Source: Rubrivivax sp. (lineage in GTDB: Bacteria; Pseudomonadota; Gammaproteobacteria; Burkholderiales; Burkholderiaceae_C). Taken from it: DNA of 36,656 nt. A program made the translations under genes and the position numbers. Below the pieces are notes generated by a model. The model had not been told where the DNA came from, did no database searches, and saw only the letters and a program-made list of their open reading frames with translations. Of this stretch, positions 9,500 to 13,701 are shown in pieces. The stretch covers positions 1 to 36,656 of the forward strand of contig JAHCKS010000047.1 of the NCBI GenBank assembly GCA_026125665.1, given 5' to 3'. Position 1 is the stretch's first letter, and every line of letters begins with the position of its first letter.

Positions 9500-9793
9500 G
9501 TCCTACGTGCGTTGCCTTGTCGAAGCGTGCGGCGCATGCCGACCACCCGCAGGCCGGGCCGCGTGCGGGCCCGCACGGCCCCTCACCGGTCGCAACCCGA
9601 CGCGCGATTAGCGCAGCGCAACACCGCAGCGTCTACTACCTCGATGGCGTAGCAGGCGGCCTGGTCGGCCCATTTTGCGCGGGCGTGTTGCATCAACGTG
9701 GCTTATGGGCCGATCAGCAATTCGGCTTTGCCGCCTTCGCACGGCCTGCCGAGAATGCCTCGCGGTCGAGCCCGAAGGCCGCGGAGCGTTCAG
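9500..9793. promoter_or_regulatory. Divergent soeA/sat promoter region
   Basis: The 294 bp between the divergent starts of soeA and sat must contain both promoters. No convincing gene is visible inside. A perfect 16-bp palindrome is present close to soeA (annotated separately). GGAG about 8 bases before the sat ATG is a good ribosome site. I see no consensus -35/-10 pair that I would assign. Confidence 0.5.
9562..9577. promoter_or_regulatory. Perfect 16-bp palindrome upstream of soeA
   Basis: CGTGCGGGCCCGCACG is fully self-complementary. Short GGGC/GCCC flanks partly extend it. It lies 63-78 bases upstream of the soeA start, inside the divergent region, where an operator for a dimeric regulator would be expected. 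With no loop it is a better duplex operator than a hairpin terminator. The regulator is unknown and chance palindromes are common at this G+C. Confidence 0.35.
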
Positions 9794-10972
9794 ATGCCGG
9801 CCCTGGTTCCGCCTCATGGCAGCCCCGTCCTCAAGCCGTTGGACGTGCCGCCCGAGCAGTTGAGCAGCGAGCGGGCGCGGGCACGGACGCTGCCCGTGCT
9901 GCGCGTGAGCTCGCGCGAGAAGGGCGACCTGATCATGCTCGGCATGGGTGGGTTCACGCCGCTGGAAGGCTTCATGGGCCGCGCCGACTGGCAGGGCGTG
10001 TGCGACCGCATGCACACGGCCAGCGGCATCTTCTGGCCGATCCCGATCACGCTGTCCACCGACGCGGCCGCCGCCGAGGCGATCGCCGTCGGCACGGAAG
10101 TCGCCCTCGCCGACCCCGACGGCGGCGAGCTGCTGGCCATCCTGCGCGTGAGCGAGAAGTACCGCATCGAGAAGCGGCACGAGTGCCTGCAGGTCTTCAG
10201 GACCGACGACGAGGCGCACCCGGGCGTGCGCATGGTGATGCAGCAAGGCGAGGTGAACCTGGCGGGGCCGGTACGCGTGCTCTCGGACGGCGGCTTCAGG
10301 GCGAGGTACGGGGCGCTCTTCATGACGCCGGCCCAGACGCGGGCCGAGTTTGAGCGCCTGGGGTGGTCGCGCGTCGCCGCGTTCCAGACGCGCAACCCGA
10401 TGCACCGCTCGCACGAATACCTGGCCAAGGTCGCCATCGAGACCTGCGACGGCGTGCTCGTGCACTCGCTGCTCGGCAACCTGAAGGCGGGCGACATTCC
10501 GGCCGACGTGCGCACGCGTGCCATCGGCCTGCTGATCGAGCGCTACTTCGTGCCGGGCACCGTGGTGCAGGCGGGTTATCCGCTGGACATGCGTTATGCC
10601 GGCCCGCGCGAGGCGCTGCTGCACGCGGTGTTCCGCCAGAACCACGGCTGCGCCTACCAGATCCTCGGCCGCGACCACGCCGGCGTCGGCAGCTACTACG
10701 GGCCTTTCGACGCGCACCGCATCTTCGACGAGGTGCCGGCCGGCGCGCTGCAGATCCGGCCGATGAAGATGGACGTGACGTTCTGGTGCTACCGCTGCGG
10801 CGGCATGGCTTCGGCCCGCACCTGCCCGCACGGCGATCACGACCGCCTGCAGGTCTCGGGCACGCAGCTGCGCAAGTGGCTCGAGAACGACGAGCACGTG
10901 CCCGAGGAGTTCAGCCGCCGCGAGGTGCTCGAGGTGCTGCGCGAGCACTACGCCGGGTTGGCGCGTGCCTGA
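9794..10972 (+). CDS. sat: ATP sulfurylase (sulfate adenylyltransferase), Sat type
   Basis: The ATG at 9794, preceded by GGAG, gives 392 residues, the normal length for homo-oligomeric Sat. Active-site motifs are intact: QTRNPMH (198-204) for phosphate binding, and GRDHAGVG (292-299). A CxxC-x8-CxxH arrangement (C332, C335, C344, H347 region) matches the zinc site seen in some bacterial and dissimilatory Sat enzymes. The enzyme interconverts ATP + sulfate and APS + PPi. Next to soeABC it may run toward ATP and sulfate during sulfur oxidation, but no aprAB is in the window, so an assimilatory role cannot be excluded. A longer frame from 9698 lacks a ribosome site and family similarity. Confidence 0.92.
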
Positions 10973-11035
10973 GCGCGCCTTCGCGATCCATCGATCAGGC
11001 TCTTGTCCGACGCCGTCACTCGCCAGGGGGTGGCG

Positions 11036-11152
11036 GGATCGGGACGGCGGGGTGCCCTGCGCAGTGAATGTCCTCTTCAGGCGGCCCAGCTTCGCTGGTC
11101 CCCCTGATGCCCCCTTGATTTCACTGCGCAAGGCACCCCGCCGTCCCGATCC
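11036..11152 (+). repeat. Structured intergenic repeat, copy 1
   Basis: The unit is bounded by 33-nt inverted arms (11036-11068 and 11120-11152) with a single mismatch, enclosing a 51-nt core. Inside, TCAGG (11077-11081) pairs with CCTGA (11103-11107), and CCAGC-TTC-GCTGG (11086-11098) forms the tip hairpin. The 66 nt from 11064 to 11129 recur in reverse orientation at 11220-11285 with six differences. All six fall in paired positions and are compensated. It lies between the convergent sat and slipin genes, so it could also end transcription. It may be a dispersed REP-like element or a structured RNA. Confidence 0.85.
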
Positions 11153-11207
11153 GGCACCCGCAGTGGCGCACGTCCGTCGAGGACCGATGCGGGTGCCCGC
11201 CAAGGAC

Positions 11208-11302
11208 GCCGGGTGGTCGGCGCAGCGAAATCAAGGGGGCATTGGGGGGACCAGCGAAGCTGGGCCGCCCAAAGAGGACATTCGCGGAGCCGACCACCCG
11301 GC
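11208..11302 (-). repeat. Structured intergenic repeat, copy 2 (inverted)
   Basis: This is the second copy of the element at 11036-11152, in the opposite orientation. Its outer stem is a perfect 14-bp pairing (11208-11221 with 11289-11302) whose sequence is unrelated to the outer stem of copy 1. The inner core 11220-11285 is about 91% identical to copy 1 and keeps the same fold. The two copies together could also form one large cruciform. Confidence 0.85.
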
Positions 11303-11348
11303 GGCCTCGGCGCGCCGCGACCTCGAGGCGCCCTTCGCCGCCGCAGCC

Positions 11349-11380
11349 GTCTGGCGGTCTGGCGGTCTGGCGGTCTGGAG
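11349..11380 (+). repeat. Tandem 8-bp repeat, four units
   Basis: GTCTGGCG is repeated three times, followed by a variant, GTCTGGAG. The array ends 12 bases before the slipin stop codon. It is a simple-sequence tract that may change length by slippage. It has no spacers, so it is not a CRISPR. Confidence 0.85.
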
Positions 11381-11392
11381 GTCAAACGATCA

Positions 11393-12181
11393 TCAGCCCG
11401 CGCGTGCCGCCTGCTGCGCCTTCATCGCCTCCAGCCACGGCGCGACGATGTCCAGCGGCAGCGGGAAGACGATGGTCGAGTTCTTGTCCGCGGCGATGAC
11501 GGTCAGCGTCTCCAGGTAGCGCAGCTGCAGCGCCTGCGGATGCCGGCCCAGGATCTCGGCCGCATCGGCCAGCTTCTGCGCCGCCTGCATCTCGCCCTCG
11601 GCGTGGATGACCTTGGCGCGGCGTTCGCGCTCGGCCTCGGCCTGGCGCGCGATGGCGCGCACCATCGACTCGTTCAGGTCGACGTGCTTGATCTCGACGT
11701 TGGTGACCTTGATGCCCCAGGCGTCGGTCTGCGCGTCGAGGATCTTCTGGATCGCCAGGTTCAGCCGCTCGCGCTCGGAGAGCATCTCGTCCAGCTCGTG
11801 CCGGCCGAGCACGGCGCGCAGCGTCGTCTGCGCCAGCTGGCTCGTCGCGGCGAGGAAGTTCTCCACCTGGATGATGGCGCGCTGCGGGTCGACGACGCGG
11901 AAGTACAGCACCGCGTTCACCTTCACCGAGACGTTGTCGCGCGAGATCACGTCCTGGCTCGGCACGTCCATGACGACGACGCGCAGGTCCACCCGCACCA
12001 TCTGCTGCAGCCCGGGGATCAGGATCACGAGGCCCGGCCCCTTCACCTTCCAGAAGCGGCCGAGCTGGAACACGACGCCGCGCTCGTACTCGCGCAGCAC
12101 GCGCAGCGAACTGGCCAGCAGCACCAGCAGCAGCACCGCCAGCGAGACGAAGCCGATCGGCAGCTCGGTCAACAGCATCAT
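11393..12181 (-). CDS. Slipin (SPFH/band 7, stomatin-like) membrane protein
   Basis: The 262-residue protein has one N-terminal membrane anchor (about 8-28), then the SPFH domain: [35 protein letters not shown], and [17 protein letters not shown] charged coiled-coil segment follows ([21 protein letters not shown]). These proteins oligomerise in the membrane and organise microdomains. The ATG at 12181 overlaps the stop of the NfeD gene by 4 bp; slipin-NfeD pairs are a known conserved operon in which the NfeD protease cleaves the slipin C-terminus. Two consecutive ATG codons (12181 and 12178) could both serve as the start. Confidence 0.93.
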
Positions 12182-13701
12182 GGGCCTCCTTCGGTGGGTT
12201 GCCGCGCCGGGGCCGCCAGCGGCGCGACCTCCAGCGTCAGCCCGTCGGCACGCAGCACGCGCACGCGGTCGCCGGCACGCAGCCCCGGCGTGGCGGCGCG
12301 CACGCGCCACTTCTCGCCGGCGATCGTCGCCCAGCCCTGCACGCCGGTCGGGCCGGCTGCGCCGCCGCTGTCGATCTCGTCCAGTTCACCAGTGGCACCG
12401 AGCATCGCCGCCGGCCCGGCAACGAGCGGCCGCTGCCGCGCCCGCCCGGCCATGCCGGCCACCGCCGCGACGAACGCCGCCGACACCACCGCCAGCACGG
12501 CGATCAGCGTGCGCGGGATCGCGAAGCCGGGCGCATCGGTGTCGAGCAGGAACAACGCGCCGAAGACGAAGGCGGTGATGCCGCCGAGGCCGAGCACGCC
12601 GAAGCTCGGCATGAAGGCCTCGGCGACCAGGAAGGCGATGCCCAGCGCCACGAGGGCCAGCCCGGCATAGTTGACCGGCAGCATCTGCAGGCCGAACGCG
12701 GCCAGCAGCAGGCACACGCCGCCGATGACCCCCGGTGCGATGAAGCCCGGGTTGAGGAACTCGAACAGCAGCCCGTACACGCCGAGCATCAGCAACACGA
12801 GCGCCACGCCCGGCTCGCTGATCACGGCGAGCAGCCGGCCGCGCCAGTCGGGCTGCACCATCTCCACCGGCGCGCCGGCAGTGGCGAGCACGAGCTCCTT
12901 GCCGCCCGCCTGCAGGCGGCGGCCGTCCAGGCGGCGCAGCAGCTCGGGCAGGTCGGCCGCGACGAGGTCCACCACCTGCTGCGCCTGCGCCTCGGTGGCG
13001 CTCAGGCTCACCGCCTCGCGCACGGCACGCTCGGCCCACTGCGCGTTGCGGCCGCGCAGCTGCGCCAGGCCACGCAGGTAGGCCGCGGCGTCGTGGACGC
13101 GCTTGGCCGTCAAGGCGTCCTGCGGCTCGGCGCGTTCGCCACCGGTGCCGCTGGCCGCGCTCGCCGGCGCCTTCGGCGGCGGCGCCGTGCCCGGGGGTGC
13201 GCCACCGGGCATCGGCAGGCCGACGGCGATCGGCGTCGCCGCGCCGAGATTCGTCGCCGGCGCCATCGCCGCCACGTGGCACGCGTAGAGGATGTAGGTG
13301 CCGGCGCTCGCCGCGCGCGCGCCCTGCGGCGAGACGAAGCCGGCCACCGGCACCGGCGCAGCGAGCACGGTGCGGATGATGTCGCGCATCGCCGTGTCCA
13401 GGCCACCGGGCGTGTCGAGCATCAGCACGACGAGCTGGGCGCCCCGTGCACCGGCACGTTCGATGGCCCGGCGCACGAGGTCGGCACTGACCGGGCCGAT
13501 CGCGCCGTGCAGCTGCAGCGCGATCACCGGGGCGCCGGCCGCTGCGGAGGCGGGCTCGGAGCGCGCGCCGGCAGCCGCTTGCGACGCCGGCGACGCACGC
13601 GCCGCCGGCGCGGCCCCGTGGGCGGGCCCCGGCCCGGCTACCTGCAACCACGCCAGGGCGATGCCGAGCGAGAGCGCGACGACCGACGCGAGGCGCCTCA
13701 T
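12178..13701 (-). CDS. nfeD: NfeD-type membrane serine protease (ClpP-class)
   Basis: The 507-residue protein has a signal peptide (about 1-30), a ClpP-like protease domain (55-280), a cluster of transmembrane segments (about 290-420) and a C-terminal OB-fold NfeD domain (440-500). The candidate nucleophile is S132 in [10 protein letters not shown], and K200 in [13 protein letters not shown] matches the catalytic lysine of the Ser-Lys dyad. [11 protein letters not shown] is the usual substrate-groove motif. A Gly/Pro/Ala-rich insert (about 162-195) lies between the nucleophile and the lysine. It is expected to cleave the partner slipin in the membrane. The ATG at 13701 places the signal peptide at the terminus. 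Confidence 0.92.

Follow-up and report, generated by a model that had tools for sequence, protein, structure and literature searches.

The inverted hairpin pair at 11033-11315 of the window, by which we mean the whole 36,656-nt stretch of Rubrivivax sp. DNA analysed here, belongs to an element that is present in many copies. Comparison of copies and loci argues that this element is probably a non-autonomous MITE-like transposable element, whose body would consist of two large inverted hairpins enclosed by arms, those of one class (type A) ending in terminal inverted repeats (TACGSNTTYGCGWTCGA). The copies are multiple, lie 3′ of genes and vary by compensatory changes in their stems; relatives carry empty sites at corresponding junctions, and the TSA trinucleotides on the two sides of a copy tend to agree.

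The hairpin pair of the window

A sequence-only reading of this DNA had described two inverted 66-nt cores (11064-11129 and the reverse complement of 11220-11285) whose every difference is half of a preserved base pair. The six differences are exactly as described: at core positions 2, 15, 16, 42, 43 and 60 the changes are, in that order, T/C, C/T, A/G, T/C, G/A and A/G, and in the predicted fold 2 pairs with 60, 15 with 43 and 16 with 42. The outer stems of the two hairpins, H1 and H2, are indeed unlike in sequence and each self-complementary (94% and 86%). Taken alone, so few differences in a single pair of copies would be thin support; the covariation that they predict is borne out in the alignment of 40 hairpins presented below.

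Each hairpin measures about 122 nt: an outer stem of some 33 bp leads to a conserved internal loop, rich in pyrimidines, and this to an apical stem-loop. Folded singly as DNA, the four strands reach z-scores of -10.8, -11.1, -7.8 and -6.9 against dinucleotide shuffles; the plus strands of the two hairpins folded as RNA give -11.6 and -6.4. When the 282-nt stretch is folded whole as one RNA, a single long hairpin with H1 paired to H2 is preferred, so that two alternative folds exist.

Resemblance between copies reaches into the flanks beyond the noted pair, and the element at the window extends past the noted cores (Table 1). Its left arm runs to the stop codon of the ATP-sulfurylase gene, directly after which a type-A left end is recognised (score 30, offset one base). 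Since the right arm has decayed, the right border can only be placed by inference, probably near 11392. The codons at the two borders are TGA on the left and TCA on the right, hence no agreeing target duplication, and the left end alone is kept of the terminal inverted repeats. The right arm also contains a tandem repeat, GCGGTCTG, at 11346-11377.

Table 1. Features of the window copy. Scores of the covariance model R1 are for hairpins that were themselves among the sequences used to build it.
Feature	Position	Strand	Basis
TGA stop codon of ATP-sulfurylase gene; left junction, TSA-type target	10970..10972	+	ORF 9698-10972 (PF01747 match, 5.9e-84)
Left arm, type A (GCGCGCCTTCGCGATCCATCGATCAG..GGGGGTG)	10973..11032	+	like left arms of copies in other genomes
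Hairpin H1	11033..11155	+	inverted repeat 94%; fold; R1 134 bits
Conserved internal-loop motif TGTCCTCTT, 5′ side of H1	11069..11077	+	partly invariant in alignment A1; TGTCCYCC in distant copies
Conserved internal-loop motif TGCCCCCTTGAT, 3′ side of H1	11108..11119	+	alignment A1 and distant copies
Linker between H1 and H2	11156..11194	.	32-41 nt in 36/40 genome doublets
Hairpin H2, inverted; core as H1, outer stem different	11195..11315	-	R1 126.3 bits, minus strand
Right arm, decayed; no type-A or type-B end recognised	11316..11392	.	end typing
Stop codon of convergent Band 7/SPFH gene; probable right border	11393..11395	-	ORF 11393-12310, minus strand (PF01145 match, 9e-39)

Copies in relatives and covariation of the stems

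A DNA search of the genome returned 90 matches: 40 places in forward orientation, the corresponding reverse matches and a small number of fragments. Near-full-length doublets are 78-92% identical to the window copy, and identity reaches 98% in a 174-base fragment at the end of a contig. R1, a covariance model built from 40 diverse hairpins, gave at least 139 matches in the same genome, reduced by hand to at least 91 distinct hairpin places, of which 40 inverted doublets account for 80 and the other 11 are single; these counts are lower bounds, as 150 of 16229 first-look candidates were scored. The window DNA was matched in 19 of 60 genomes of the genus, its own included, with long, many-copy matches in five (the genome of the window, G000, and G009, G012, G039 and G043). 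Across the taxonomic family, R1 matched at least 103 of 299 genomes and at least 60 of 141 genera, again including its own, a lower bound with 12 candidates scored per genome. A second model (R2), built from the distant hairpin set, matched 13 genomes of an order-wide sample of 300, including eight that belong to two further families (f13 and f21). The covariance-model search that the sequence-only reading had called for thus yields many further copies, in this genome and in related Burkholderiales. GTDB records with the core pattern were, among the matches listed, Rubrivivax and Burkholderiales MAGs; a plasmid collection gave one weak match, to a Variovorax replicon that holds one doublet.

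At 23 of the 31 distant loci there is at least one complete inverted doublet (24 doublets in all); the other eight hold one hairpin above threshold, or two far apart. Some arrangements are unusual. Two consecutive doublets form a BIME-like cluster in G141 (L172:1297-1890); the doublets of G079 (L253, L267, L279) have one very short apical stem and a linker of about 130 nt; and a small palindrome (AACAGTCC..GGACTGTT) lies inside hairpins of the family in two genera (L032:6929-7015; L146 near 1700-1790).

In the alignment of 40 hairpins, 89.5% of 1818 cells pair, against 74.2% when shuffled and at most 45.5% when slid. Helix 2 is paired in 99.5% of cells; three pairs near the internal loop are poorly kept, for example columns 33-109, unpaired in 34 of 40. 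One apical-stem pair occurs among 114 H1 sequences as U-A in 62, C-G in 39 and G-C in 13. Part of the covariation comes from the difference between H1 and H2, and the apical stem covaries within each class alone too. Among 49 hairpins from the distant loci, with the consensus CTCCGCtcATGTCCYCC, apical stem, YCCYCCTTKAYTTCGCTGCG, 86.8% of cells pair against 59.4% when shuffled and at most 43.7% when slid, in an alignment fitted to R1 and biased toward its structure. Selection on the folded form, as the sequence-only reading had suggested, is supported in own and distant copies alike. That reading had named further copies without covariation as evidence against it; the copies found change on both sides in 33 of 46 pairs (the 40 hairpins) and 41 of 45 pairs (distant), counts that take all copies as independent and uncorrected for relatedness.

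Pairing in the copies also bears on whether the selected form is an RNA. G-U and A-C cells, at 39/40 in H1 and 26/37 in H2, are about equally common, so that no folded strand is clearly preferred, and strand-specific RNA selection was rejected on these figures. Nor did Rfam, searched in view of the structured ncRNA offered as one identity for the pair, give a match above gathering score for the window and 13 further loci. A related view would take the hairpins for structured RNAs maintained by the host, as 3′ UTR stabilisers, RNase III sites or intercistronic regulators, and spread by recombination rather than transposition. In favour of this view, the hairpins fold strongly and sit 3′ of genes, and the internal loop of distant copies carries CCTCCTT, with AAGGAGG on the opposite strand, which we take to resemble the 16S anti-Shine-Dalgarno and Shine-Dalgarno sequences. 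The lack of strand preference argues against a host RNA, however, as do the terminal inverted repeats, the agreement of the TSA trinucleotides and the presence or absence of the element at conserved junctions, and we regard this view as unlikely.

Ends, target sites and proposed mode of movement

The type-A ends read TSA-TAC.. and ..GTA-TSA (hyphens mark junctions), with outer end repeats TACGGCTTCGC/TACGCATTTGC. End typing covered 108 of 117 doublets (duplicates, short flanks and identical arms being excluded). Both ends are of type A in 28 of these and of type B in 10, while 38 have neither type at either end and 32 show other combinations; the cut-offs were lenient, and chance contributes to the calls of single ends. 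TSA is present at both ends in 16 of the 28 doublets with two type-A ends and missing from one or both in 12. The two sides share its middle base in 14 of these 16 doublets (G in 8, C in 6; p 0.002) and differ in L078 and L124. By our reading of the end-typing table, a neighbouring gene has one TSA as its stop codon in 12 of the 16, a coincidence that is partly expected, since the gaps are short and insertions within genes would be lost.

Sites with the terminal repeat pattern number 27+27 in G043 against 1+0 in the control, and 2+2, 5+10, 1+1 and 2+2 in the other four genomes against 0. The unpaired sites that were fetched and examined are truncated copies; inspection revealed no transposase-like gene and no autonomous partner with the same ends among them. 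G043 also holds several copies of a 111-bp palindromic element (L247:829-939, L239:6591-6700) with ends TACGGCTTCGCATTCAA, the outer part of which, TACGGCTTCGC, it has in common with type-A doublets, and with TSA duplications that agree in all 8 pairs whose two ends are readable; a further copy has a single end.

Comparison of loci between relatives shows insertion, as a difference between filled and empty junctions rather than as an event watched happening. The genes flanking the window copy lie on different contigs in the relatives where both are listed (such as G012, G026, G035 and G051) and are no neighbours there, so that empty sites were taken from other loci. At hom-thrC the genome of the window reads CTGA-AATGAAACC..element..GGTGGAGCAAC-TGA-GTTGAAG, and 15 of 20 fetched relatives have CTGARTTGAARTAC or variants of it, with no insert; one relative (L207) was counted neither as empty nor as filled. 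The remaining four (L204, L205, L206 and L211, from G039, G056, G032 and G057) carry a different insert directly after the stop codon, alike in L204, L206 and L211 (GCCCCCA(A/G)GC..hairpin..CCCCC) and looser in L205. The ureB-ureC junction is empty in 16 of 20 relatives, while L226 (G048) has a doublet of the distant type, L215 a decayed doublet, and L213 and L229 short inserts of other kinds. The 20 loci per junction were picked from 60 searched genomes, mostly where two genes stood close, and 15/20 and 16/20 are therefore no frequencies. Filled sites L028 and L040 have TGA at both sides. A longer duplication of 9-10 bp was considered for type B, given the hom-thrC sides CTGAAATGAA and CTGAGTTGAA; TGA alone agrees steadily across copies, and the 3-bp duplication was therefore retained.

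These features lead us to envision a transposase acting in trans that would cut at TSA and duplicate 3 bp, presumably a DDE enzyme making 3-bp duplications. Groups of the IS5 family have TNA targets. As TGA is a stop codon, insertion there would leave both neighbours intact. The hairpins themselves would most likely be kept as folded DNA for transposition or as folded RNA shielding 3′ ends.

The sequence-only reading had proposed a REP-like mobile element and had pointed to a RAYT transposase as something to look for in the genome. REPINs and BIMEs consist of REP-like hairpins moved as single-stranded DNA by such a (Y1 HUH) enzyme, and much about the present copies recalls them: inverted extragenic hairpin doublets, covarying stems and, as the available text of PMC3116915 describes for REPINs, a scarcity of single hairpins relative to doublets (singles make up 11 of 91 places). 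Y1_Tnp genes occur, moreover, in 221 of 299 family genomes. Their distribution nevertheless speaks against a link. Y1_Tnp (PF01797) was not found in the genome of the window (88.6% complete), in G012 (99% complete) or in G039 (95%), the last two belonging to a set of 10 genomes of which 5 have one, nor was it found in 18 of 51 family genomes with at least five scored hairpins. Across the 299 genomes there is no association with the hairpins (73 with both, 30 with hairpin only, 148 with Y1 only, 48 with neither; odds ratio 0.79, p 0.41), and at 20 Y1_Tnp loci the best hairpin match has an E value of 0.27, which means no flanking hairpins. Type-A copies have 3-bp duplications and terminal inverted repeats, and the hairpins measure about 105-125 nt against the 20-40 bp given for REPs in the available part of PMC3733652, a text in which none of the six Burkholderiales genera looked for is named. 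A RAYT-linked REPIN was therefore set aside as quite improbable; the part of the proposal that stands is a multi-copy, extragenic, apparently mobile inverted doublet.

Gene context and copies between coupled genes

Gene context was read from genes called with a simple custom codon model, not a published gene finder. In the Rubrivivax group, 117 doublets (three of them duplicates of the same places) divide into 55 in convergent gaps, 51 in tandem gaps, 1 in a divergent gap and 10 lacking one neighbour. For the window and L057-L140, the 63 gaps with a doublet are 38 convergent, 24 tandem and 1 divergent, against 40, 322 and 73 of the 435 gaps without one at the same loci. Doublets are thus enriched in convergent gaps, avoided in divergent gaps and placed 3′ of genes. 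The 24 distant doublets comprise 10 convergent, 14 tandem and 0 divergent. Bidirectional intrinsic terminators, another identity suggested for the pair, would account for the 38 of 63 doublets in convergent gaps; they would not account for the 24 within tandem gene pairs, some of them inside conserved operons, and a search of 10900-11500, covering the window copy only, found 0 terminator-like sites (a stem followed by a T run). We consider that identity very improbable.

Copies between tandem genes include a class of their own. Where both ends are of type B, as in 10 doublets, the copy is always found between tandem genes and in one orientation; the right arm of these copies reads GTTTCAT..GGTGGAGCAAC-TGANATG, with GGAG before the next start in 9 of 10. 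This arm recurs, with at most 4 substitutions, in L252, L265 and L278 (family f21) and in L189 (another genus). In the genome of the window, 12 copies have a type-B left end or pair or a nested type-B context. The H1 frame continuing from the left end is open in all 12, which are related to one another, the probability of an open frame by dinucleotide shuffles being 0.11-0.36 per copy; the corresponding frame is open in 69 of 104 other doublets and in 7 of 23 distant ones. ATG or GTG stands beside the upstream stop in 10 of the 12, the exceptions being L027, with ACG, and L036, nested behind a fragment. Six frames end at the junction TGA, L028 and L031 at a TGA overlapping the next start, and L015 slightly later, while those of L027, L033 and L036 continue further. 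Of the 12 type-B copies, 10 have a core whose length is 2 modulo 3, against 42 of 102 others. In other genomes, open frames end at the junction TGA after 119 (L226), 115 (L252), 118 (L265) and 114 codons (L189, starting about 40 nt past the called upstream stop); that of L278 is broken after 32 codons, and the left codon is TAG in L252 and L265.

We take this as moderate evidence, drawn from reading frames, that type B is translated. Five of its peptides were tried and had no Pfam or NCBIfam match, so that a function as protein appears less likely than passage of ribosomes. Type B would bring to a tandem gene pair a start near the upstream stop and a frame through the hairpins, together with a Shine-Dalgarno-like sequence; its stop would lie next to the start of the downstream gene. 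Ribosomes could then traverse the copy, and translation of the operon would be retained. Tentatively, with slightly less than even confidence, we suggest that type B occupies the stop/start junction of coupled genes as a translation-transparent transposable element. Such an element would keep coupling by means of its own start, a frame through two structurally selected hairpins, an embedded Shine-Dalgarno and a stop at the next start, a design that would predate the divergence of two or more bacterial families.

As a whole, the element joins a MITE-like nature with a REPIN-like architecture. Open-licence PMC literature offered no description in which we recognised these doublets, the nearest being the Beta-proteobacterial repeat element, BRE (Hot et al. 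2011). In the available part of that description (PMC3110155), BRE is about 90 bp long (75-91 in Bordetella) and is also found in Polaromonas, Delftia, Acidovorax, Rhodoferax and other hosts; mobility is suspected, some copies lie within coding sequences, one is in the region of transcribed bprJ RNAs, and no function is proposed. BRE resembles the present element in being GC-rich, usually intergenic and suspected of mobility, and in an overlapping host range. The same text describes it as tandem and VNTR-like, however, and gives no inverted doublet, fold, covariation, target duplication or target. To judge by BRE's description, the two possibly belong to one superfamily.

Other likenesses are partial and, like that to BRE, are drawn from the available portions of the sources. 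REPINs and BIMEs are likewise inverted hairpin doublets, extragenic and in many copies (PMC3116915, PMC2817692); the present hairpins are much larger than theirs, with terminal inverted repeats and TSA duplications, and no RAYT link was found. Bacterial MITEs are small and non-autonomous, with terminal inverted repeats plus target duplications, and some are said to carry open frames (PMC10969869). They differ from the present element, the body of which consists of two large hairpins that covary and have conserved internal loops, and of which type B carries a frame, a Shine-Dalgarno-like sequence and a stop of its own. Rickettsia palindromic elements are also palindromic repeats compatible with translation, but as in-frame fusions inside genes, whereas type B has a separate frame between genes (PMC10969869).

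What emerges is a small element, its hairpins kept by compensatory changes across many genera, that enters operons at stop codons. It makes testable what folded DNA or RNA contributes to a transposon with target duplications, and also the manner in which mobile DNA enters operons without polarity. If it is kin of BRE, it would provide a structural description for a betaproteobacterial repeat whose function was left open in 2011.
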